Shown here: piece by piece, positions 39,223 through 51,344 of the stretch
Numbering within the stretch: position 1 is the stretch's first letter
Layout: every line of letters begins with the position of its first letter
Source of the DNA: Lacrimispora sp. BS-2
Lineage (GTDB): Bacteria > Bacillota > Clostridia > Lachnospirales > Lachnospiraceae
Length of the DNA: 64,000 bases
Assembly (NCBI RefSeq): GCF_040207125.1
Contig: NZ_CP157940.1
Coordinates: 310,001 to 374,000, forward strand
Direction of reading: 5' to 3'
Translations under genes and position numbers: made by a program
Notes under the pieces: model-generated
Told to the model about the DNA's origin: nothing
The model's input: only the letters and a program-made list of their open reading frames with translations
Database searches by the model: none

Positions 39223-39262
39223 CTGACAGAAACATGGGGCAGGGGTTAGCAGGAGAATGAAT

Positions 39263-40846
39263 ATGACAGGCCTTTTATCAGAAACAATCGGAGAACTGCT
39301 TCATAAAAGAGCTGTTCTTACGCCGAATGGAGCAGGAATCTGCTGCCAGGACAGAAGTTATACCTGGAAAGAGGCGGATGAAATTTCGGATTTTTGGGCG
39401 GCTGACTTTATTAGAAGAGGAATATCGCGGGGGAAACATGTCGCGTTGTGGGGGATAAACAGCCCGGAATGGATCATGGCGTATTTTGCTTTTATGAAGT
39501 CCGGGGCGATTGTGCTCCCGGTCAATACATGCTATAAGGAACAGGAATTAAAGCAGGTTTTAAAGGAAGCGGATGCAGACTATCTGTTCTATGGGAAGGG
39601 CTGCAGGAATGCGGACTACGGACCGGTCATTTCAAAAGCAGGGTTAGACCGGCCGGACAGCTTCTTAAAAGGGATCGCATCCCTGGACCGGCTGCCTGGC
39701 TGTGAAACAGGTGAAAACAGGGAAGAGGATAAGCGGATTTTAAGAGAAGCAGAACAGAACCTGTCCTCAAAGGATACCGCTAACATACTTTTTACCTCAG
39801 GTACCTCCGGCGTTCCCAAAGGAGTGATGCTAAGCCACCATAACCTGGTCAACAATTCTGCCGAAATGGTACGTTCCATGCATTGGAACGAAAGTGACCG
39901 CATGTGTTTATCTGTTCCTCTGTTTCACTGCTTTGGCATCACAGCGGGCATTTTGTCCGCTGTCCATGCCGGAGCGGCAATTTATATAAATCCGTATTAT
40001 AAGTCCATTGGAGTTATGGAAAATATAGAGAAAAATTCCTGTACCATTCTAAACGGTGTTCCCAGCATGTTTCTGGCTATGGTAAAGAATGGCAGGAGAA
40101 ATGAATACGATCTAAGTTCCTTAAAGAGCGGAATTATCGCTGGTTCCGCCATTCGCCCCACAGATTATATGAATATCTGTGAAGAACTGAAGATGGAACA
40201 TCTGCAGCCTTCCTATGGGCAGACCGAGTCTTCTCCTGCGATTACCATGACCGGATATTGGGATCCAATCTGCCGAAAGGCCCTTACGGCAGGAAAAAAG
40301 ATCCCTTATACGGATTTAAGAATCTGGGATGAAAGAAGAAAGTGCGTTGCCAAAACAGGCAGTGTGGGAGAAATCCAGTCCAGGGGATATCACATTATGA
40401 AGGGCTATTACAACAGAACCAAAGAAACGGAAAAGGTGCTGGACAGGGAAGGCTGGCTTCATACAGGGGACTGCGGTTATCTGGATGAAGAAGGCTGTCT
40501 TTATATAACCGGACGGAAAAAAGAGATGATTATCCGGGGCGGTGAAAACATAGCGCCGGTGGAAATTGAAAACTGCATCCTGGAGCTTCCGGAAATCAAG
40601 GATGTGAAGATAATAGGAGTTGATGCCCAGGTTCTTCAGGAAGAAATTGCGGCCTGTATCATCATGGAGCCTGGGACAGAGTTTTCTGAAGAGAGGGTCA
40701 GGGAACAGGTCCGTCAGAAGCTGGCGGATTATAAGGTTCCAAAATATGTTTATCGGTTTGAAGCATTTCCTTTTGGCAGCAGCGGAAAGGTTAAAATCCA
40801 TGAGTTACGTCAGGAGATCGAGAAACGGTTAGCGAAAAGAGGTTAA
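39263..40846 (+). CDS. AMP-forming acyl-CoA synthetase
   Basis: A ~527-residue adenylate-forming ligase. The phosphate loop is FTSGTSGVPKGVMLSH, followed by the A5 motif YGQTESSP, HTGDCGYLDEEG and the catalytic lysine motif SSGKVKIHELR near the C-terminus. It activates a carboxylic acid to its CoA thioester with ATP. ATG 39263 is preferred because GGAG lies 7 nt upstream; ATG 39257 abuts it. In this operon it could prime the CoA cycle for the hydroxy acid or product acid, with the family III CoA-transferase recycling CoA afterwards. Substrate chain type cannot be inferred. Confidence 0.9.
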   Translation: MTGLLSETIGELLHKRAVLTPNGAGICCQDRSYTWKEADEISDFWAADFIRRGISRGKHVALWGINSPEWIMAYFAFMKSGAIVLPVNTCYKEQELKQVLKEADADYLFYGKGCRNADYGPVISKAGLDRPDSFLKGIASLDRLPGCETGENREEDKRILREAEQNLSSKDTANILFTSGTSGVPKGVMLSHHNLVNNSAEMVRSMHWNESDRMCLSVPLFHCFGITAGILSAVHAGAAIYINPYYKSIGVMENIEKNSCTILNGVPSMFLAMVKNGRRNEYDLSSLKSGIIAGSAIRPTDYMNICEELKMEHLQPSYGQTESSPAITMTGYWDPICRKALTAGKKIPYTDLRIWDERRKCVAKTGSVGEIQSRGYHIMKGYYNRTKETEKVLDREGWLHTGDCGYLDEEGCLYITGRKKEMIIRGGENIAPVEIENCILELPEIKDVKIIGVDAQVLQEEIAACIIMEPGTEFSEERVREQVRQKLADYKVPKYVYRFEAFPFGSSGKVKIHELRQEIEKRLAKRG

Positions 40847-40858
40847 GGAGGAAACAAC

Positions 40859-42001
40859 ATGTATTTTACAAAACAGCATGAGCTTGTCCGGAAACTTGCG
40901 AGGGAGTTTGCGGAAAAAGAACTGACCAATGAGATCCTCGATGAGGTTGAGGAAAGCGGGATATTTCCGGAGGATATCCTTTGCAAAATGGGAAAGGCCG
41001 GATTTTTCGGCATTAAAACGCCAAAGGAATACGGAGGTTCAGGCGGTGACGCCCGCTGTTACGTGCTGGTAATGGAGGAAATGGCAAGAGTCAGCGGAGT
41101 CGCAAGCATTTATGTATCTTCCCCCAATTCTCTTTCCGGAGGTCCTCTGTTATTATCCGGCACAGAGGAGCAGAAACGGAAATACCTTCCCCCATTGATA
41201 AGCGGGAACAAAAAGCTCTGCTTTGCCCTGACGGAGCCGGGAGCAGGTTCCGATGCGGGCGGCATGCAGTCCACCGCAGTAAAAGAAGGGGATTCCTACA
41301 TATTAAATGGAAGAAAGACCTTTATCACCATGGCGCCTCTGGCAGATTATGCGGTGATATACGCAAAGACGGATATGACAAAGGGAACAAAAGGAATCAG
41401 CGCCTTTATTGTAGATATGAAAAATACCCCTGGAATTTCCTGTGGAAAGCCGGAACATAAGATGGGTGTCATCGGTTGTGCCACCAGCGATATCATTATG
41501 GATAACGCAAGGATTCCGGCAGAAAATCTTCTGGGTGAGGAGGGCATGGGCTTTATAAATGCCATGAAGACCCTGGATACCGGCCGTATGGGAGTGGCTG
41601 CCCAGTCCATCGGAGTTGCCCAGGGGGCTCTTGATGAGGCGATTAAATACGCAAAGGAAAGAAAACAGTTCGGCAGACGAATCGGAGATTTCCAGGCAAT
41701 TGCATTTATGATCGCAGATATGGCAACTAAGCTAGAGGCTGCCAAGCAGCTGGTTTATAAGACTGCCTATTTAATGGATACCCATCAGCCTGCAACCATG
41801 GAAGCTTCTATGGCAAAGTATTATGCTTCTGAAGTCTGCAATGAAATCGCTTCAAAATCCCTTCAGATCCATGGTGGTTACGGATTTATCAAAGATTATA
41901 AGATTGAGCGCATGTACAGGGATTGCCGTGTGTTTACCATTTACGAAGGTACCTCACAAATCCAGCAGCTGGTGATTTCCGGAAAACTGCTTAAGAAATA
42001 A
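40859..42001 (+). CDS. acdB: Acyl-CoA dehydrogenase (AcdB/Bcd type), working as enoyl-CoA reductase with Etf
   Basis: A 380-residue flavoprotein of the acyl-CoA dehydrogenase family. FAD/substrate motifs CFALTEPGAGSDAGGMQST and RKTFITMAPLADYAV are present, and the catalytic base is in IYEGTSQIQQ near the C-terminus. In Stickland-type clusters such enzymes run in the reductive direction with an electron-transferring flavoprotein, saturating the enoyl-CoA made by the dehydratase. The adjacent etfB and etfA genes support this. AAGGAGGAAACAAC precedes the start. Confidence 0.93.
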   Translation: MYFTKQHELVRKLAREFAEKELTNEILDEVEESGIFPEDILCKMGKAGFFGIKTPKEYGGSGGDARCYVLVMEEMARVSGVASIYVSSPNSLSGGPLLLSGTEEQKRKYLPPLISGNKKLCFALTEPGAGSDAGGMQSTAVKEGDSYILNGRKTFITMAPLADYAVIYAKTDMTKGTKGISAFIVDMKNTPGISCGKPEHKMGVIGCATSDIIMDNARIPAENLLGEEGMGFINAMKTLDTGRMGVAAQSIGVAQGALDEAIKYAKERKQFGRRIGDFQAIAFMIADMATKLEAAKQLVYKTAYLMDTHQPATMEASMAKYYASEVCNEIASKSLQIHGGYGFIKDYKIERMYRDCRVFTIYEGTSQIQQLVISGKLLKK

Positions 42002-42029
42002 TGACTACACGGAAGGAGTAATGAAAACG

Positions 42030-42815
42030 ATGAAGATTTTGGTTTGTGTGAAACAGGTGCCGGATACCAACGAAGTAAAGATCGATCCGGTAAAGGGTAC
42101 ATTGATCCGTGACGGAGTTCCCAGCATTCTAAACCCTGATGATGCAAATGCCCTGGAAGAGGCATTGAAAATAAAAGACAAAAAGCCTGGAACAACGGTT
42201 TCCGTTATTACCATGGGACCGCCTCAGGCTGATGATATGTTAAGAGAATGCCTGGCAATGGGAGCGGATGAGGCTTATCTGCTCAGTGACAGGGCCTTTG
42301 GCGGGGCAGATACCTGTGCCACCTCCACCACCATTGCTGCCGGCATTCAAAAAATCGGAGATTATGACATTATTTTCGCAGGCCGCCAGGCCATTGACGG
42401 GGATACGGCCCAGGTAGGCCCTCAGGTAGCCTGGAGGCTTGGCATCCCGGTTGTGACCTATGTTCAGGATGTAAAGCTTTGCGAAGAAAAGGTGATCGTA
42501 CAAAGGCAGATGGAAAACGGATATGAAATTCTGGAGGTCCAGATGCCATGTCTCCTTACTGCAGTAAAAGAACTGAATGAGCCCCGTTACATGAGCATAG
42601 GCGGAATCATGGATGCCTATGCAAAAAAAGTTACCGTATGGAATCATGAGGATGTGGGACTGGATCCCAAAGACTGTGGTTTAAATGCTTCTCCGACCCA
42701 GGTTTTCCGTTCCTTTACTCCCGCCCCAAAGGGAAAAGGGGAGATGCTTGACGGAACAGTGACCGAAATGGCAGAGTTGTTGACTGAAAAACTGAAAGAG
42801 AAGCATTATCTTTAA
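42030..42815 (+). CDS. etfB: Electron transfer flavoprotein, beta subunit
   Basis: A ~261-residue EtfB. The N-terminal [43 protein letters not shown] and VVTYVQDVK segments are typical. It pairs with the next gene's product to shuttle electrons to the acyl-CoA dehydrogenase; in anaerobes such pairs can bifurcate electrons from NADH to ferredoxin and enoyl-CoA. The start at ATG 42030 fits the family; ATG 42021 is only 2 nt from GGAG. Confidence 0.95.
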
Positions 42816-42841
42816 GACCCAGGAAAAGGAGGAAGGTTCAT

Positions 42842-44023
42842 ATGGCTGTAAATGTAATAAAAGAAAAATGCAGGGGCTGTTCCATCTGCGTAAAGAACTG
42901 CCCGTTTGAAGCAATTACAATGGAAAATAAACTGGCTGTCATTGGTTCTGCCTGCACCGGATGCGGTGTTTGTGTGGAAAAGTGTCCCTTTGATGCAATA
43001 GAAAAGTCAGAAGAGCCAAAGGATACGGTCGATTTATCGGAATACCGGGATGTATGGGTATTTGCGGAACAAAGAGAAGGAGCGCTCATGCCGGTAGTAA
43101 AAGAACTTCTGGGAGAAGGACGGAAGCTGGCAGATGAGATCGGATGCAGCCTTTGTACGGTATTATGCGGGAACCAGGTGGAAGGACTTGCGGATGAACT
43201 GTTTGAATACGGAGCGGATAAGGTTTATCTTGCGGATCATAAAGAACTGGAAGCCTACCGCACTGACGCTTATACGGCTGTGATTCATGATGCCATCAGA
43301 TCCTACAAGCCTGAAATCGTCCTTTTGGGAGCGACTCACATCGGCCGTGACTTAGGTCCCTGTCTGGCAGTCCGCTGTAATACCGGACTGACTGCCGACT
43401 GCACCAGGCTGGAAATAGATGAAGAGGATAAGAAGATCAAGCAGACCCGTCCGGCCTTTGGCGGGAATTTAATGGCAACCATTGTCTGCCCGAACCACAG
43501 GCCCCAGATGTCCACGGTACGTCCGGGAGTCATGGAAAAGGCCGAAAGGCAGGCAGGGCGGAAGGGCCAGGTCATTCCTCTTTCCGTTTATTTTGAAAGA
43601 GATGATATCAGGACACAAATCCTTGAGGTAGTAAAGCAGGCTGGAGAAGCAGTATCCTTAACCGATGCGGAGATCATTGTATCCGGCGGTATGGGCCTTG
43701 GCGGAGCCGAGGGATTTGAACTGTTAAAAAAGCTGGCTGATAAACTTGGCGGTGTGGTTGCTGCGAGCCGTGCTGCAGTAGACGCAGGCTGGATCGATCA
43801 TTCCTATCAGGTGGGGCAGACCGGGACAACGGTGCGTCCCAAGCTGTATTTTGCATGCGGTATTTCCGGTGCCATTCAGCATGTGGCAGGCATGCAGAAC
43901 TCGGAGCAGATCATTGCCATCAATAAAAACCCGGCAGCTCCGATCTTTGAAGTGGCCGATTACGGCATCGTAGGGGATTTAAACCAGGTGATCCCTGCAT
44001 TGATAGAAGCACTGGACAAATAA
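42842..44023 (+). CDS. etfA: Electron transfer flavoprotein, alpha subunit with N-terminal 2[4Fe-4S] ferredoxin domain
   Basis: A 393-residue EtfA, about 60 residues longer than simple forms because it begins with a two-cluster ferredoxin module: cysteines 10, 13, 16, 20 and 38, 41, 44, 48 in the CxxCxxCxxxCP pattern. The EtfA FAD domain is at the C-terminus ([19 protein letters not shown], then [17 protein letters not shown]). Such fused EtfA proteins occur in bifurcating systems, for example the caffeyl-CoA reductase complex of Acetobacterium, so direct ferredoxin reduction and energy conservation are likely here (family knowledge plus inference). Confidence 0.94.
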
Positions 44024-44037
44024 AGGAGGGTATTAAT

Positions 44038-45282
44038 ATGGGAAAGAAGCTGTTGGAAGGAATCAAAGTAGTGGAGCTGGCAACCTTTATTGCGGCTGCA
44101 GGAGCAGGACGTTTTCTTGCGGACTGCGGAGCGGATGTGATTAAAATCGAATCCGCAAAGGGGGATCCCTTAAGGCATACGGCTCCGTCCGAAGGAAGGC
44201 CTTTGGATATGTATGAAAATACGACCTGGGATCTGGAAAATGGAAACAAGCGCTGCATCTCTCTTAATATGAAAGCGCCCGAGGGAAAAGAGGCATTTTT
44301 TAAGCTTTTAGAGGATGCGGATGTGCTGATCACCAACTGGAGAGTCCAGGCTCTTGAACGGGCGGGGCTTGACTATGAAACCTTAAAGGTGAAATATCCC
44401 AGGCTGGTTTATGCCATGGTAACCGGATACGGAGAATACGGCCCGGATAAGGACCTTCCCGGGTTTGATTTCACGGCGTTTTTTGCAAGAGGAGGCTATC
44501 TCCATTCCCTCCGCCAGAAAGGAACGGTTCCAATGAATGTGGTTCCAGGAGTTGGGGATCATAACGTGGCCATGAACCTGGCAGCAGGAATTCTTGCGGC
44601 ATTGTATCATGCAAAAGAAACCGGACAGGGTGAAAAGGTGGAAACCAGCCTGTTTGAGACGGCTGTCTATAACATGGGAATGATGATCCAGGCAGCCAAT
44701 TATGACGGCCCGGCAAGAGAATATCCCATTAACATCAGAGAGAGCGCCAACCCCTTTAACGCGGCATGGAGGACAAAGGATGACAGATTCATTCAGACCT
44801 GTATGCCGGATTACAACACCTATTATAAGCAGTTCATGAAAGCTCTTGGAAGAGATGATTTATTAGAGAATGAGAATTACTTCCCTATCCAGAACCTTCA
44901 GGCAAAAGGCTTAGGCACAGAGGTCTATGACATCTGTATGGATGCAATGGAAAAAAAGACAGCCAAAGAATGGGTACCGGTTTTAAAGGAACATGACATC
45001 GCTTTCAGCGTTGCCCAGTCCTGGGAAGAGATTTTAGAGGATGAGCAGGCATGGGCCAATGACTGCTTCTATAAAATGCAGTACGGCAATGGAAATGTGC
45101 GCACACTGGTAAGACCGCCGGTCAAATTCCAGGAAATGGGCGTTCCAGAGTACAATGGCGGTCCTTTGATCGGAGAGCAGGGACCGGAAATCCTGGAAAA
45201 TCTGGGGTATACCAAAGAAGAGATCAGGGAATTTCAGAAAAAGGGAATCCTTTATGTGTGGAAGGATGAGAGAAAAAACTAG
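44038..45282 (+). CDS. hadA: Family III (CaiB/BaiF) CoA-transferase, HadA/FldA-like
   Basis: A 414-residue formyl-CoA transferase-type enzyme. The N-terminal KVVELATFIAAAGAGRFLAD and IKIESAKGDPLR blocks are family-typical, and the probable catalytic aspartate is in LPGFDFTAFFARGG (D144). In leucine or phenylalanine reduction such enzymes move CoA from the saturated acyl-CoA product to the incoming 2-hydroxy acid. It ends the operon, ahead of a strong terminator. AAAGGAGG precedes the start. Confidence 0.92.
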   Translation: MGKKLLEGIKVVELATFIAAAGAGRFLADCGADVIKIESAKGDPLRHTAPSEGRPLDMYENTTWDLENGNKRCISLNMKAPEGKEAFFKLLEDADVLITNWRVQALERAGLDYETLKVKYPRLVYAMVTGYGEYGPDKDLPGFDFTAFFARGGYLHSLRQKGTVPMNVVPGVGDHNVAMNLAAGILAALYHAKETGQGEKVETSLFETAVYNMGMMIQAANYDGPAREYPINIRESANPFNAAWRTKDDRFIQTCMPDYNTYYKQFMKALGRDDLLENENYFPIQNLQAKGLGTEVYDICMDAMEKKTAKEWVPVLKEHDIAFSVAQSWEEILEDEQAWANDCFYKMQYGNGNVRTLVRPPVKFQEMGVPEYNGGPLIGEQGPEILENLGYTKEEIREFQKKGILYVWKDERKN

Positions 45283-45625: not shown

Positions 45626-47134
45626 TTATTTCGTATACCGGTCTATGAAGTAGGAGAGCCGCAGCAGGAACAGGGTATTGATATCCGTCAAATCAAGGCG
45701 GCATAAGCCGGTGATGCGGTTTAAGCGGTAGGCCAGGGAATTACGGTGTATGTACAGGCTTTCGGAGGCCAGCTTGATGTTGCAGCCCTTTTCAATAAAG
45801 ACACAGAGGGTTTTGTATAATTGAGAACTGTTTTCCCGGTCATACTGTTTCAGCACTGAAAGGGCGGGATGGCAGAACCGTTCCAGACGGCCGGTATCTT
45901 TTACCTCGGAAAGCAGGTGAAAAATCTGATAATCCTGGTAAAAGCACACAGGTTCTTCGCTTCCTAATTTCTGTCCCATTTCCAAGGCGGCAAGCGCCTG
46001 ATCGTAGTGGCGTACAAAGGTTTCAATGTCAGTAAAGCAATTACTGATTCCAATCTGCATAGGTTCTTTTTGACACAATGCCTTTAAGCTTTCCAGTATC
46101 CCAGGGCCTGGATCTTCTTCCTCATCTAAGGGAATGATTCCTACGATGCCTTTTTTATGGCAGGTAACAAGAATGCCGGGGATAGAAGTTTTCAGACTCT
46201 TGCATGCAAGAGAATTTAAGTGCTGCTGTCCCATATATTTTGCAGGACGGAGAAAGATCACCTGCATTCTGGAAGGAAAACGGAGCTTTTTAAGCCTTGG
46301 CTGAATATCTCTTAAAGGCGCTCCTATCAGCATTTCGTACAGCAGATCGTGATACAGGCCGGTCCCTTCAAACAGCCCGGGCGTGTAACAGGTAATGGTA
46401 TAACTAAGGGCATGGCTTATGATGCTCAGCATTTCAAAATGAAAGGGGAGGAAGGGATTTTCTCCCTCAATGGTCAATAAAAAGCCTATTTGCGTCTGGT
46501 TGTGAAACACCTTGCTGGCCAGCTTCCGGTAGGGGGATATGGGACAGGTGACTTCCGCCGCCGCAGTAGTCTGAGGCGTATTGCGGACGCACTGCATGCT
46601 TTTTACCCCATTGATAAATTCATAGCCGCAGTAGCCCCGCTTTGTATTCTCGATCCAGAGAGGATCAGGGACCGGGTAGGAGTCAGAGCTTGCAAGAATT
46701 TTGAAATTCATGTCGCAAAATAACAGGGAATTGCCAAGCTTTACGGAAGCGGCTTCAATTACAGACTCTATGGTGCGGGTTTCATCAGCCAGGGTCGTAA
46801 GCTCGGTATAAATGCCATCGTTCCTTGTGGACTCAACCAAAGTTTTGATATCATTAAATATAGAAAACAGGGAATTTTCCGGGACCAGAGCTGCATTGCC
46901 TTCCGGTGAAAATGGCAGTATGTTCTCACCGGTTCCGGCCAGAATGCAATGGGCAGGAAAAGACTTTGCAGCCGCCAGTTGTTTATCGTAACCAAAGTAA
47001 AGGGTGTTTTTGGCGGCAGGATTCTGTCTGCCATCCAGAAAAGCAACATTTTGTATTTCGGAATTTTCCTCCTGAGAGAGGATATCTATGTTATATTCTT
47101 CAGAAATTCTTTCAATCAGCTTTGAAAATGTCAT
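45626..47134 (-). CDS. PucR-family transcriptional regulator
   Basis: A ~502-residue regulator with an N-terminal PucR-like domain, a GAF-like middle region (roughly residues 115-240), a GGDEF-like/CdaR middle part and a C-terminal PucR helix-turn-helix (ASESLYIHRNSLAYRLNRI). Proteins of this type respond to small metabolites such as purine breakdown products, sugar acids or amino acids. Start ATG 47134 has GAGG 6 nt upstream; ATG 47146 is also in frame. The gene is divergent from the flavoenzyme-decarboxylase fusion, with ~165 bp between, so that operon is its likely target. Confidence 0.88.
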   Translation of the reverse strand: MTFSKLIERISEEYNIDILSQEENSEIQNVAFLDGRQNPAAKNTLYFGYDKQLAAAKSFPAHCILAGTGENILPFSPEGNAALVPENSLFSIFNDIKTLVESTRNDGIYTELTTLADETRTIESVIEAASVKLGNSLLFCDMNFKILASSDSYPVPDPLWIENTKRGYCGYEFINGVKSMQCVRNTPQTTAAAEVTCPISPYRKLASKVFHNQTQIGFLLTIEGENPFLPFHFEMLSIISHALSYTITCYTPGLFEGTGLYHDLLYEMLIGAPLRDIQPRLKKLRFPSRMQVIFLRPAKYMGQQHLNSLACKSLKTSIPGILVTCHKKGIVGIIPLDEEEDPGPGILESLKALCQKEPMQIGISNCFTDIETFVRHYDQALAALEMGQKLGSEEPVCFYQDYQIFHLLSEVKDTGRLERFCHPALSVLKQYDRENSSQLYKTLCVFIEKGCNIKLASESLYIHRNSLAYRLNRITGLCRLDLTDINTLFLLRLSYFIDRYTK

Positions 47135-47230
47135 GGTTTTCCTCATTTCCTGGTTGAATGGGTAATGGCTTTTTCTTAACTATAGTGCATCGTAAACAAG
47201 TTGTCAAATCCTTATCGTTTATCATATACG

Positions 47231-47259
47231 TTGTGATATGGCTGCACTTCTTTTATACT
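47231..47259 (+). promoter_or_regulatory. Sigma-A promoter of the fusion flavoenzyme/SDR pair
   Basis: TTGTGA (47231-47236), 17-bp spacer, TATACT (47254-47259), 43 bp before the start codon. Confidence 0.72.
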
Positions 47260-47270
47260 GATGTCAAGAC

Positions 47271-47284
47271 TGGAAACGTTTGCA
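47271..47284 (+). promoter_or_regulatory. cre-like operator (CcpA/LacI family site)
   Basis: TGGAAACGTTTGCA agrees with the cre pattern TGWNANCGNTNWCA at all but the two W positions. It overlaps the perfect 12-bp palindrome CGTTTGCAAACG (47277-47288). It lies directly after the predicted transcription start, a position where CcpA binding represses. A dedicated LacI-family regulator is the alternative. Confidence 0.62.
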
Positions 47285-47301
47285 AACGGAACAGGAGGTA
47301 T

Positions 47302-50118
47302 ATGATGTATAACAGGTTATTTGAAGAGGGGAAAATCGGTAAGGTGGTACTAAAGAACCGTCTGGTAATGTCACCAATGGGATGCGGACTTGCCAACTTA
47401 GATGGTACGCCCACAGAGGATATGCTGGCCTTTTATGAGGCAAGAGCAATTGGAGGGGCAGGATTAATCATTCCGGAAATTACCCGGATTAATGATGTGC
47501 ATGGAGCGGGGCTTATGAGGCAGCTCTCCGTTACAAAGGACAGGCATATTGAGCCTTTGGCAAGGCTTGCCCAGGTGGTTCACAGGCATGGAAGCAGGAT
47601 TTTTATACAGCTGCATCATCCGGGACGTGAAACGGTATCGGCCCTTCTGGGCGGCCAGCCCGTTGTGGCACCATCTCCAATCCCCTGCAAGGTGTCTAAG
47701 CAGGAGACCAGAGGCCTTACAACAGAGGAAATAGAAGAAATTATCAAACAATTCATTGACGGTGCTGCCAGAGTACAAAAAGCAGGCTGTGACGGCGTTG
47801 AGCTGCATGCTGCCCACGGCTACCTGCTTCACCAGTTCCTGTCTCCCTATACCAATAAAAGAGATGATGAATATGGGGGCAGCTTTGAGAACCGGCTGAG
47901 AATTGTAACTGACATCATTGCAGGGATCAGAAAGGCATGCGGCCCGGATTTTGTAGTTGGTGTCCGGTTGAGCGTGGAGGAGTTCCTGGATAAAACCGGA
48001 GTGACGGAGGAATATTTACATATACAGGACGGCATAAAGATTTCCATGGTCTTGGAACAGGCGGGAATCGATTTTATTGATGTCAGCTGCGGCTTATATG
48101 AAACAGGAATGACCTGTGTGGAGCCAATATCCTTTCCTCAGGGGTGGAGACGTGATTTGCTGGCAGCCATAAAAAACCATGTGACGATCCCGGTAATCGG
48201 TGTATCTGTCATCAGAGAGCCTGCAGTGGCAGAAAAATTTCTGGAAGAGGGAGTTGTGGATTTCGTATCCATGGGGCGTTCCTGGATTGCAGATGAAGAG
48301 TGGGGTAAAAAGGTACTGGAGGGCAGAGAGGATCAATTGAGAAAGTGCGTATCCTGCCTCCGCTGCTTTGAAAGCTTAAGCGAATACAATGCCGCCGGTT
48401 TGCCGCCGGAATGTTCTTTGAACCCAAGATATGCAAGAGAAAGAAAATACGGGGACTTAGTCCAGGATATAAAAGGGCACAGGGCAGTGGTCGTGGGAGG
48501 CGGACCGGCAGGCATGTGTGCGGCCCAGACACTTGCCCAGCGAGGGGTGGAGGTGATTTTGCTTGACCGTCATTCAGAGCTTGGCGGCATGGTAAATCTG
48601 GCAAAAATACCGCCCCGGAAGGAACGGTTGCAGTGGATTGCAGATTATTACAACAGGGAATTCAGCCGGCTTGGTGTAGAGGTCCGGTTGAACACGGAGG
48701 CAACAGCCGAGACGATCTTAGCCTGTAAGCCTGACGCGGTCATCCTTGCCACCGGTTCCTCCTCAATCGTTCCGGGCAGGATTCCGGGAATTAACGGCGG
48801 TAATGTATTTACCGCAGAGTCTGTTCTGTCCGGCAAAGCGGACTTAAAAGGAAAAAGGGTCACGTTAATAGGAGCCGGTCTTACAGGACTTGAGACAGCA
48901 GAATATTTGTGCGGGAGAGGAAATAAAGTTACTATTGTAGATATGGCTGAAAAACCGGCACCCAACGGAAACCGCACCAATGTGGCCGATGTATGCGGGC
49001 GGCTGGAAAAAGCCGGGGCTGTTTACCTTCTTGGGCATTCCCTTAAGGAGATCACACCGGAGGGGGTTGTGTTAGAAAAACTTGAGATTCAGGAAGAGGT
49101 CTTTGCGGCATCAGATGCCGTGGTATTGTCGCTGGGATTTCTTCCGGATCAGTCACTGCTTCAAAGCCTGCAGGCAGAGGGAGTTCCGGTGAAGATAATT
49201 GGAAGCGCCTTAAAAGACGGAACCATAGCGCCGGCAGTACGCACCGGTTTTGAGGCCGGACGGGAATTATTTGCAGAGAAAGAAAAAACGCCCAGTTTTC
49301 TTATTACAGGGGAAGACATGGCAAACTTCGGAAGGATTTCTCTTATGGATAACCAGGAGGGGATTTATATCAGCTATCTGACTGATCCGGAAGCTGTTGC
49401 CAGAATACTGCCGCCTCCGTTAAAACCCTTTTCCATGCCTGTTGTAACCCTTTCCGTCTGCCGCGTTAAGAACCCGACCTTTGCAGATGATTACTACGAA
49501 GCAATTCTTGGTGTTTATGCAACTTACGGAAAATCCCTGGGCTTATATCCCCTGGGCCTGGTGCTTGGAGGTCCGGGATCAGAAATGGCGGTACAGTGCG
49601 GCCGTGATAACGGGAGTATTCCAAAGAAATCAGGAGCCGAATTTGTTATCCGGAAGAATGGTGACATGATCACTGCAGGTGTTACAAGAAGGGGGACACA
49701 GCTGGTAGAGGCAACTGTAAGATCAGGTGAATACAACAATCCCATGGCAGCAGCTCTTTACCAGTATCCGGCAGCAGGTAAACAGACCTTTGGAGGCGGT
49801 TTCTATTTTCATTTTGACCGCATCCCCGATGAAAAGGGAACATCCCATTTCACAAACGGCGCCTTGCTCATGAACCAGTGTGAGTACAATTATCAGGCCT
49901 GGGAGCCAGGATTTGCAACCTTAAATCTTACCTCCAGCGTGGATGATCCATGGGGAGAGCTTCCCATCAATACCATTATCGGGGGAGCTTATTCAAAGAA
50001 CAGCCTGCTTGTACACAAGCTGAATCTGATGGAAAAGCTGGATGCAGACGAAATTGTTCCGTATTTGCTGACCGGGCGCTATGACCGGACGGCATTTATG
50101 GAGACTGGACGTATTTAA
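47302..50118 (+). CDS. Fusion: Old Yellow Enzyme/2,4-dienoyl-CoA reductase-type flavoprotein plus acetoacetate decarboxylase-like domain
   Basis: A ~938-residue single frame with three parts. (1) An FMN TIM barrel (~residues 1-350) with LHHPGRE and the active-site run ELHAAHGYLLHQFLSPYTNK. (2) A [4Fe-4S] motif CVSCLRC plus a later cysteine in ECSLNP, then FAD/NAD(P) folds (VVGGGPAGMCAAQ, IGAGLTGLETAEYL), ending about 49285. (3) An acetoacetate-decarboxylase-like domain from about 49290 to the stop, with the adjacent lysine pair IPKK (49624-49629) in the place of the Schiff-base lysine. Parts 1-2 alone match 2-enoate/dienoyl reductases. AGGAGG precedes ATG 47302/47305; the long upstream extension to 47158 is not likely translated. 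Substrate unknown. Confidence 0.9.
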   Translation: MMYNRLFEEGKIGKVVLKNRLVMSPMGCGLANLDGTPTEDMLAFYEARAIGGAGLIIPEITRINDVHGAGLMRQLSVTKDRHIEPLARLAQVVHRHGSRIFIQLHHPGRETVSALLGGQPVVAPSPIPCKVSKQETRGLTTEEIEEIIKQFIDGAARVQKAGCDGVELHAAHGYLLHQFLSPYTNKRDDEYGGSFENRLRIVTDIIAGIRKACGPDFVVGVRLSVEEFLDKTGVTEEYLHIQDGIKISMVLEQAGIDFIDVSCGLYETGMTCVEPISFPQGWRRDLLAAIKNHVTIPVIGVSVIREPAVAEKFLEEGVVDFVSMGRSWIADEEWGKKVLEGREDQLRKCVSCLRCFESLSEYNAAGLPPECSLNPRYARERKYGDLVQDIKGHRAVVVGGGPAGMCAAQTLAQRGVEVILLDRHSELGGMVNLAKIPPRKERLQWIADYYNREFSRLGVEVRLNTEATAETILACKPDAVILATGSSSIVPGRIPGINGGNVFTAESVLSGKADLKGKRVTLIGAGLTGLETAEYLCGRGNKVTIVDMAEKPAPNGNRTNVADVCGRLEKAGAVYLLGHSLKEITPEGVVLEKLEIQEEVFAASDAVVLSLGFLPDQSLLQSLQAEGVPVKIIGSALKDGTIAPAVRTGFEAGRELFAEKEKTPSFLITGEDMANFGRISLMDNQEGIYISYLTDPEAVARILPPPLKPFSMPVVTLSVCRVKNPTFADDYYEAILGVYATYGKSLGLYPLGLVLGGPGSEMAVQCGRDNGSIPKKSGAEFVIRKNGDMITAGVTRRGTQLVEATVRSGEYNNPMAAALYQYPAAGKQTFGGGFYFHFDRIPDEKGTSHFTNGALLMNQCEYNYQAWEPGFATLNLTSSVDDPWGELPINTIIGGAYSKNSLLVHKLNLMEKLDADEIVPYLLTGRYDRTAFMETGRI
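47577..47580 (+). other. Note: FMN-binding barrel of the fusion enzyme is intact
   Basis: The barrel between 47302 and 48340 contains no stop or frameshift, so the fusion enzyme is not a decayed gene at its N-terminal side. Confidence 0.5.
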
Positions 50119-50205
50119 GTCCGGAACCCTTGTGTTTTGAACTGCCATACAGGAAAATTCCTGTTGTTTAATGCAGATACATTTTAAGAAGGAGGATTTA
50201 ATATT

Positions 50206-50982
50206 ATGGAAAATTTATTTGATTTATCGGGAAAGGTAGCAGTTGTAACAGGAGCCAGTGCAGGGCTTGGGGCAGATGCAGCTCTTGCTTATGCGAAAGC
50301 AGGGGCAGATGTGGCCTTATTAGCAAGGCGTATTGAGAAACTGAACGGGGTGAAAGCAGAGATCGAAAAATTAGGGCGCAAAGCCATGGCAGTGTCTTGT
50401 GACATCACACAGGAAGACAGCGTAAAATCAGCTATGGAGAATGTGCTGGCTGCTTTCGGCCACATTGATATTTTACTGAACAATGCAGGCGTTGCGGTCC
50501 GTGGCGGTGTTGACAGCATGACAACAGAGGAATGGGATAAGTCCTTTGACACCAATGTAAAAGGAATCTTTTTAGCAAGCAAATATGTGATTCCCCAGAT
50601 GAAGGAAAAAGGCTATGGAAAAATCATAAACATTGCTTCTGTCAATGCGGTCATTGCAGATAAAAGCGATGTGTTTATCAGGCATGCCTACAACTCCTCA
50701 AAATCAGCGGTTATTGGATTGACAAAGGGAATGGCCTGTTCTTATGCAAGATATGGAATTACGGTAAATGCCATTGGGCCTGCACTTTTTGAATCAGAAA
50801 TGACTGCCGACACCTTATTTAAGTCAGAGCAGTTCTTAAGCTTATACAATACGGCGAATCCGGCAGGGCGTCCCGGACGCAGGGGAGAGCTAAACGGTAC
50901 CATTCTCTATCTTTCTTCCGATGCCTCCAGTTATGTCCAGGGACAGTTTATCATTGTGGACGGCGGCGGATCAATCGTATAA
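50206..50982 (+). CDS. Short-chain dehydrogenase/reductase (FabG-like)
   Basis: A 258-residue classical SDR: cofactor motif TGASAGLG (residues 15-22), NNAG at 92-95, catalytic Ser145, Tyr162 and Lys166 in AYNSSK, and the C-terminal PAGRPGRRGELNGTILYLSS. The Arg-Arg after the first strand (LLARRIEK) favours NADP(H). AAGGAGG stands 10 nt before the start. It follows the fusion flavoenzyme by 87 bp under the same promoter, so it probably reduces the keto product or oxidises the hydroxy substrate of that enzyme (inference). Confidence 0.9.
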   Translation: MENLFDLSGKVAVVTGASAGLGADAALAYAKAGADVALLARRIEKLNGVKAEIEKLGRKAMAVSCDITQEDSVKSAMENVLAAFGHIDILLNNAGVAVRGGVDSMTTEEWDKSFDTNVKGIFLASKYVIPQMKEKGYGKIINIASVNAVIADKSDVFIRHAYNSSKSAVIGLTKGMACSYARYGITVNAIGPALFESEMTADTLFKSEQFLSLYNTANPAGRPGRRGELNGTILYLSSDASSYVQGQFIIVDGGGSIV

Positions 50983-50997
50983 AACATTTTTAACTCA

Positions 50998-51042
50998 AAA
51001 CAGACTGCCTGGTTGCAGCATATAAACCGGGCAGTTTGTTTC
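50998..51042 (+). terminator. Terminator after the SDR gene
   Basis: AAACAGACTGCCTGGTT (50998-51014) pairs with AACCGGGCAGTTTGTTT (51025-51041) with one mismatch and one G-T pair; short T-run. Confidence 0.75.
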
Positions 51043-51118
51043 ATTCGGCTCAGATAATACCATGCATGCCGCATCAAAAATACATGAATAGGATAGAATT
51101 AAAACAGCACTTTTATTC

Positions 51119-51147
51119 TTGTATCTTACGCTGATTCGAAGTATAAT
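51119..51147 (+). promoter_or_regulatory. Promoter of the small antitoxin-like gene
   Basis: TTGTAT (51119-51124), 17-bp spacer, TATAAT (51142-51147). Confidence 0.6.
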
Positions 51148-51182
51148 GAGGCTATATTAAAACATGAGAGGAGATGAATGAA

Positions 51183-51344
51183 ATGATAAAATCAAATTTT
51201 ATTCAGGTGCCGGAACATTTAAATTATACGGAAGCTGACGCAATACAGGCTTTAAAGTCGGAACTGGAAAAGGGAATTGAAAGTATGGAGCGCGGTTCAG
51301 TGTATACAATTGAAGACGCGTGGAAAGAAATTGACGCAATTTAG
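51183..51344 (+). CDS. Small antitoxin-like protein, 53 residues
   Basis: A 53-codon ORF with AGAGGAG 9 nt before ATG 51183 and a good promoter. The product ends in KGIESMERGSVYTIEDAWKE, a helical pattern common in small type II antitoxins and related plasmid-stability proteins. A following ATG (51354) opens only a 22-codon frame, so no toxin gene is intact. It may be an orphan antitoxin whose toxin partner was lost; identification is by pattern only. Confidence 0.5.
   Translation: MIKSNFIQVPEHLNYTEADAIQALKSELEKGIESMERGSVYTIEDAWKEIDAI

Follow-up and report, generated by a model that had tools for sequence, protein, structure and literature searches.

An iron-sulphur flavin reductase joined to an acetoacetate decarboxylase-like domain in anaerobic bacteria, beside genes for a short-chain dehydrogenase and a PucR regulator

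The 2,4-dienoyl-CoA reductases, the enoate reductases and the BaiCD-type enzymes are flavoenzymes of the old yellow enzyme (OYE) type, which have in common a flavin mononucleotide (FMN) barrel, four cysteines and a module for flavin adenine dinucleotide (FAD) and NAD(P). In the gene sets of the equol and bile-acid type an ene-reductase lies beside a short-chain dehydrogenase/reductase (SDR), and the two act on the same carbonyl; we know of no acetoacetate decarboxylase (ADC) domain in these sets. In ADC, the residues of the Schiff-base site are presumably Lys115, Lys116 and Glu76. Here we describe a gene of Lacrimispora sp. BS-2 in which both kinds of enzyme are joined, found in a stretch of 64,000 nucleotides (positions 310,001 to 374,000 of contig NZ_CP157940.1), called the window below and numbered from its first letter. 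It likewise lies beside an SDR gene, and here a gene for a PucR-type regulator also adjoins. Some anaerobic bacteria possess a single polypeptide that unites an iron-sulphur (Fe-S) flavin reductase with a decarboxylase-like domain, together with an adjoining SDR gene and a regulator gene. As far as sequence comparison can tell, the fusion is a conserved joint of domains of known kinds, with a changed ADC site.

The original prediction for this gene was of one uninterrupted frame that runs from an OYE-type barrel through an Fe-S motif and an FAD/NAD(P) module into an ADC-like domain with an adjacent lysine pair, in the company of an SDR gene and a divergent PucR gene, and each of these parts was confirmed. 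The frame is open over 938 residues, and PF00724, PF07992 and PF06314 all match above their cut-offs (Table 1), the first two, with curated cut-offs, placing the protein among the OYE-type Fe-S flavoenzymes. Cys349, Cys352, Cys355 and Cys371 are unchanged in all 24 full-length fused rows and, by analogy with the family, probably bind the cluster. The best PDB match of the flavin part is 1ps9, and the alignment to it pairs Tyr174, present in 24 of 24 rows, with Tyr166 of Escherichia coli 2,4-dienoyl-CoA reductase, which we take to be the catalytic tyrosine. BaiCD (NF041087) is the best NCBIfam match, at 445.9 bits, far below its cut-off of 825; the protein differs from the dienoyl-CoA reductase and BaiCD type also by its added C-terminal domain and by one acid position discussed below. 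No family for the whole fused protein appears among the best 25 of 126 NCBIfam matches.

The C-terminal domain, when modelled alone, is predicted to have the ADC fold and, with its PF06314 match, belongs to the ADC superfamily. Five models were made (mean predicted local distance difference test score, pLDDT, of 85.2, 81.5, 73.3, 62.9 and 55.9) and the best one was used, the missing of other folds in the fold comparison not being taken as evidence. The pair Lys775-Lys776 aligns with Lys115-Lys116 of the ADC in PDB 3bh2 and, like Glu733 at the position of Glu76, is unchanged in all 28 ADC-domain rows, a few of them identical or almost identical to one another. A profile of the fused and the related separate ADC-like domains reached decarboxylase-type ADCs of the PDB at E values of 4e-12 to 5e-11, and the hydratase/aldolase-type protein Swit_4259 at E 0.2 only. 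Compared with ADC (PF06314; PDB 3bh2, 3bgt, 3c8w), however, the fused domain has glutamine for Arg29 and serine for Glu61, two residues that we take to be important in the Clostridium acetobutylicum enzyme, and it is fused to a flavoenzyme. Ordinary ADC activity can therefore not be assumed: judged by its residues, the C-terminal part has the ADC fold but is not an ADC proper. The original reading is thus supported in part: the joint, the fold, the lysine pair and the link to SDR and PucR stand, and the coupling of ene-reduction with decarboxylation of a beta-keto acid, as first proposed, is plausible but unproven. Because Arg29 and Glu61 are replaced, a rival to decarboxylation stays in play, and it is the main one. 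The domain could be a Schiff-base hydratase or retro-aldolase like SBI00515, MppR and Swit_4259, in which case the SDR would make a ketone, the flavin domain would desaturate it to an enone, and the ADC domain would add water and cleave a C-C bond, or the reverse. These ADC-like aldolase-dehydratases and hydratases have the same fold at a lower Z than ADC, and the profile search returned Swit_4259 alone of the three, weakly. We hold the hydratase or retro-aldolase scheme to be rather less likely than not.

The fusion is widespread among anaerobes. Named genomes were scanned for exact peptide patterns of the ADC part, a procedure that sets only a lower bound; at least 26 loci came up, 25 of the 26 with the full fusion on one frame. 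Carriers include Lacrimispora celerecrescens, Anaerocolumna, Lachnotalea glycerini, Hespellia stercorisuis, Ruminiclostridium cellobioparum, Clostridium cadaveris, Oscillibacter ruminantium, Acetobacterium paludosum, Acetobacterium tundrae, a Mogibacterium metagenome-assembled genome and others. The sole non-fused locus, L082 (Lachnospiraceae), keeps its ADC domain intact, on a frame of 403 aa overlapping a PucR frame. A PucR relative above 200 bits accompanies all 26 loci, and an SDR above 100 bits 23 of them. Within the genus, 22 of 25 genomes, the window's own included, have an ADC match, which lies on a frame of 941-986 aa in six; 14 of the 16 others are on a standard frame of 254-263 aa. 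The class sample (291 genomes) yielded seven ADC matches, two of them on long frames. With a profile of the fused domains and that of genome G567, seven matches were found among 392 genomes of the order (two long frames, four separate genes of another ADC-like kind and one broken remnant) and two among 398 of the phylum, namely the window's own and a separate gene in genome G022. When these 398 genomes were searched with the whole protein, two candidates being scored per genome, none besides the window's own extended past residue 697 among the matches listed at E up to 1e-60. Some genomes occur in more than one of the genus, order and named-locus counts, which overlap. The genome of the window has a single ADC match, that of the fused gene, and three Oxidored_FMN matches. 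The long single frame recurs in 25 of the 26 named loci and in six of the 25 genus genomes, which refutes the idea of two genes joined in assembly or sequencing, for which nothing was found and to which we give practically no weight. Such a join, a missing ADC-fold match and loss of the lysine in homologs were the findings that the original prediction had named as fatal to itself, and none of them occurred. As for the standard enzyme, the six genus genomes with the fusion lack it, and the 16 that have it (two partial or split) lack an intact fusion, which may be only kinship; one genome, G675, has a standard ADC and a broken fusion remnant, its ADC part with stops and its SDR intact.

The OYE-ADC joint is real, and selection maintains it. 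Compared with five further fused proteins from the genus, the window's protein shows 83-84% identity over the OYE part, 74% over the FAD module and 81-84% over the ADC part. The ratio of nonsynonymous to synonymous substitution (dN/dS) is 0.06-0.09, 0.09-0.17 and 0.09-0.13, respectively, in three close genus pairs, to which the values are confined as dS is saturated or undefined for the pair of the window and L064. That the ADC domain is dead, or purely structural or binding, would suit the change of two of the five ADC active-site positions inspected, but the invariance of Lys775, Lys776 and Glu733 in all 28 rows, an identity to the window of 72-83% in a five-row set, and the dN/dS of the ADC part in the three close pairs make this very improbable.

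The same parts also occur unfused. Genome G022 has a divergent PucR gene and separate genes for OYE (646 aa), ADC (270 aa) and SDR (257 aa), in the order of the fusion. Genome G567 (L066:5109-11762) combines a glycyl-radical enzyme and its activase with a 270-aa ADC-like protein and a 698-aa OYE/FAD protein; a PucR or SDR match was not found in this stretch. Its glycyl-radical enzyme is near HpfG, the sulfopropanediol dehydratase (986.7 bits; cut-off 1000), and is perhaps another carbonyl-forming step. The separate OYE proteins stop at about residue 656 and the separate ADC proteins start at about 664, which leaves a short junction that could come from the loss of one stop between adjoining genes. 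This would fit the view that the two halves perform unconnected or merely co-regulated steps, the fusion fixing only their ratio. Against it stand the occurrence of the same parts in the unfused set of G022 and a tree of OYE parts, in which 21 fused rows from 20 loci, a subset of the fused loci, form one clade (100/100) across several families (Lachnospiraceae, Clostridiaceae, Oscillospiraceae, Eubacteriaceae and Anaerovoracaceae among the tree rows) with the same gene set; we hold unconnected steps to be improbable. The tree has 53 rows, each fused row being cut to its first 665 letters; the row of L069 opened 5' of the likely start, and the cut therefore removed part of its C-terminal side. 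The sisters of the fused clade are the G567 OYE and a paralog from the genome of the window (100/97 in a 23-row set), the first of these two nearest unfused OYEs (L066) being on a long branch, while L024 and the neighbour of L065 have very long branches and an unsure place. Among 29 loci of unfused OYEs (L003-L031; stretches of 5 kb or less), ten have an iron-type alcohol dehydrogenase-like neighbour (three of these dehydrogenases were checked), seven of them with a LysR-like neighbour as well; three have PucR and another SDR, one (G022) has PucR, ADC and SDR, and 15 have none of these pairs.

The observed domains, the predicted fold, the conserved residues and the conserved gene set suggest that one chain carries a pair of active sites, one in an FAD/Fe-S/FMN ene-reductase fed by NAD(P)H and the other in a Schiff-base domain of the ADC fold at the C-terminus, and that the fused enzyme and the SDR would make up a small pathway of their own, next to a PucR regulator dedicated to it. 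Our tentative reading, which we hold with somewhat less than even confidence, is that a single unsaturated hydroxy or oxo acid is processed in turn by the SDR, the ADC domain and the flavin domain, with the ADC site decarboxylating. From a small unsaturated hydroxy acid the SDR would make the oxo acid by oxidising a secondary alcohol; the ketone would be captured as an imine on Lys775, its pKa tuned by Lys776, after which CO2 would be lost; and the FAD/Fe-S/FMN chain would carry electrons from NAD(P)H to the conjugated C=C bond. NADH regained in the SDR step could feed this reduction, so that the unit could be redox-neutral; in G567, the glycyl-radical enzyme would supply the carbonyl by another route. 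The order and direction of the steps, decarboxylation as the chemistry and the class of substrate are what we infer. We favour this sequence because of the Pfam matches, the ADC fold, the invariant lysine pair and Glu76 equivalent, the E values of the PDB profile search, the conserved PucR and SDR genes, the unfused set of G022 and that of G567, and dN/dS values of 0.06-0.17.

Several findings weigh against this sequence of steps. The position of His252, which we take to be a second acid specific to 2,4-dienoyl-CoA reductase itself, is Tyr266 in all 24 fused rows, and Arg29 and Glu61 of ADC are aligned with Gln685 and Ser718 in all 28, a pairing of residues that is uncertain at about 20% identity. 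The profile of fused and separate domains found 3cmb, which is titled acetoacetate decarboxylase, at E 0.59 only, and a profile of five fused domains alone was weak against three PDB ADCs (E 9e-5, 0.011 and 0.38). The full-length model is weak (pLDDT 72, predicted template modelling score 0.57) and too poor to place the two sites relative to each other. The OYE of G022 is not a sister of the fused clade and groups with OYEs of the PucR-SDR type, and its ADC shares only 24% identity with the fused domain (the ADC-like protein of G567, 32%); such low identities imply that the association of OYE and ADC is very old or has arisen more than once, and the G022 set may not be the direct ancestor of the fusion. 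A weak terminator-like stem (50149-50164) lies between the fused gene and the SDR gene, so that a common transcript, though likely, is not certain. Neither a transporter nor a downstream catabolic gene nor a known pathway hints at the substrate. Steroids, flavonoids, cyclic polyols and uronates were considered as substrates and dropped, none having evidence.

Beyond the sequence of steps, we speculate, with modest confidence, that this is a novel pathway of anaerobic Clostridia in which flavin ene-reduction and imine chemistry are applied to the same unsaturated oxo acid, the intermediate being handed between the two sites, and in which the ADC site has a new invariant set with Gln and Ser for Arg29 and Glu61. 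If the coupling is true, the protein would be a ready-made biocatalyst that combines C=C reduction and C-C cleavage in a single chain, and it would point to a metabolic step that has yet to be assigned in anaerobes such as Lacrimispora, Anaerocolumna, Oscillibacter and Acetobacterium. With so few genes in the set (regulator, SDR, fused enzyme), the substrate can be sought directly by knock-out metabolomics.

Table 1. Features of the fused gene and its surroundings in the window
Feature	Position	Strand	Basis
PucR/CdaR-type transcription regulator, 506 aa	45626..47146	-	PF13556 HTH_30 61.4 bits, PF17853 39.7 bits; divergent from fused gene
Shared divergent control region	47147..47301		Consensus scan only
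Promoter-like TTGACA-17-TATAGT	47207-47179	-	Consensus scan
Promoter-like TTGTGA-17-TATACT	47231-47259	+	Consensus scan
Fused flavoenzyme-ADC gene	47302..50118	+	Open frame, 938 aa; start 47302 or 47305
OYE-type FMN barrel, residues 6-345	47317..48336	+	PF00724 235.3 bits, cut-off 27
Fe-S cysteines 349, 352, 355, 371	48346..48414	+	CxxCxxC-x15-C in sequence
FAD/NAD(P) pyridine nucleotide-disulphide module, residues 394-630	48481..49191	+	PF07992 103.2 bits, cut-off 26.1
Short junction, about residues 657-663	49270..49290	+	Comparison with unfused G022 and G567 proteins
ADC-fold domain, about residues 664-938	49291..50115	+	PF06314 at 677-911, 159.1 bits, cut-off 29.8
Lys775-Lys776, Schiff-base lysine pair by alignment	49624..49629	+	
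SDR, 258 aa	50206..50982	+	PF00106 186.4 bits; Tyr-x-x-x-Lys motif; own AGGAGG site

The mechanical open reading frame of the fused gene opens further 5', at 47158; the likely start is one of the two in Table 1, because an AGGAGG-like ribosome site lies just 5' of them and aligned relatives begin with M-Y-N/D. The scan for promoter-like pairs is near chance, with eight found in 47000-51200 against 5.9 expected (standard deviation 2.1). The SDR gene starts 87 bases 3' of the fused gene. Clustering of the neighbours of 32 loci (L061-L065, L069-L094 and the window, over their neighbouring stretches) placed PucR and the fused gene in 31 loci each and the SDR in 27; the next cluster, ABC-transporter ATPase-like by its sequence, was found in nine, at scattered positions. 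The SDR lies 3' of the fusion in Lacrimispora, Anaerocolumna, Hespellia, C. cadaveris and others, and also in Acetobacterium, where it is of a more distant kind; in Oscillibacter and several other loci a different SDR lies 5', so that at least two kinds accompany the fusion. An SDR match was not found at L083 and L093, which have fusion and PucR, nor at L082. The SDR partner is mostly kept despite its changed place and kind, which suggests a functional need.

Other partners were considered and found unsupported. Upstream genes for acyl-CoA ligase, acyl-CoA dehydrogenase, Etf and CoA-transferase, and downstream genes for aldehyde and alcohol dehydrogenases, had no match beside the fusion in other loci. 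The upstream set of the window (39257-45282: acyl-CoA ligase, acyl-CoA dehydrogenase, EtfB, ferredoxin-fused EtfA and family III CoA-transferase) resembles an acryloyl-CoA reductase set, the EtfB exception model alone being over its cut-off among the NCBIfam matches shown. A relation to the acetone operon is unsupported: the standard ADC of genome G626 (L067) adjoins ctfA/ctfB- and thiolase-like genes, and the genus's other standard ADCs, seen in shorter stretches, have ctf-like neighbours in most cases (all judged by eye from sequence, without a family search on the neighbours), a setting that the fused gene lacks.

Some related loci deserve mention in their own right. In the Mogibacterium genome (L091:982-10642), two divergent fused paralogs flank the PucR gene, and a single frame of 597 aa holds a tandem double SDR. 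The set of G567 is operon-like, with LysR-like genes on both sides, and could belong to a new glycyl-radical pathway. In all four genomes of the order with the other, separate kind of ADC, the ADC-like gene lies directly 5' of a gene of about 500 aa (L104:6503-8917, L105:1811-4187, L106:9609-11981 and L107:5506-7886); the two partners that were scanned both match DUF362 and the other two are alike by sequence, a second unexplained ADC pairing. Finally, a haloarchaeal plasmid (L110:5917-11225) carries an ADC-like gene with 27% identity and without the Glu76 equivalent, adjoining genes annotated as hydantoinase/oxoprolinase family and acetone carboxylase gamma, neighbours that would fit ketone or beta-oxo acid chemistry for distant kin of the fused domain.
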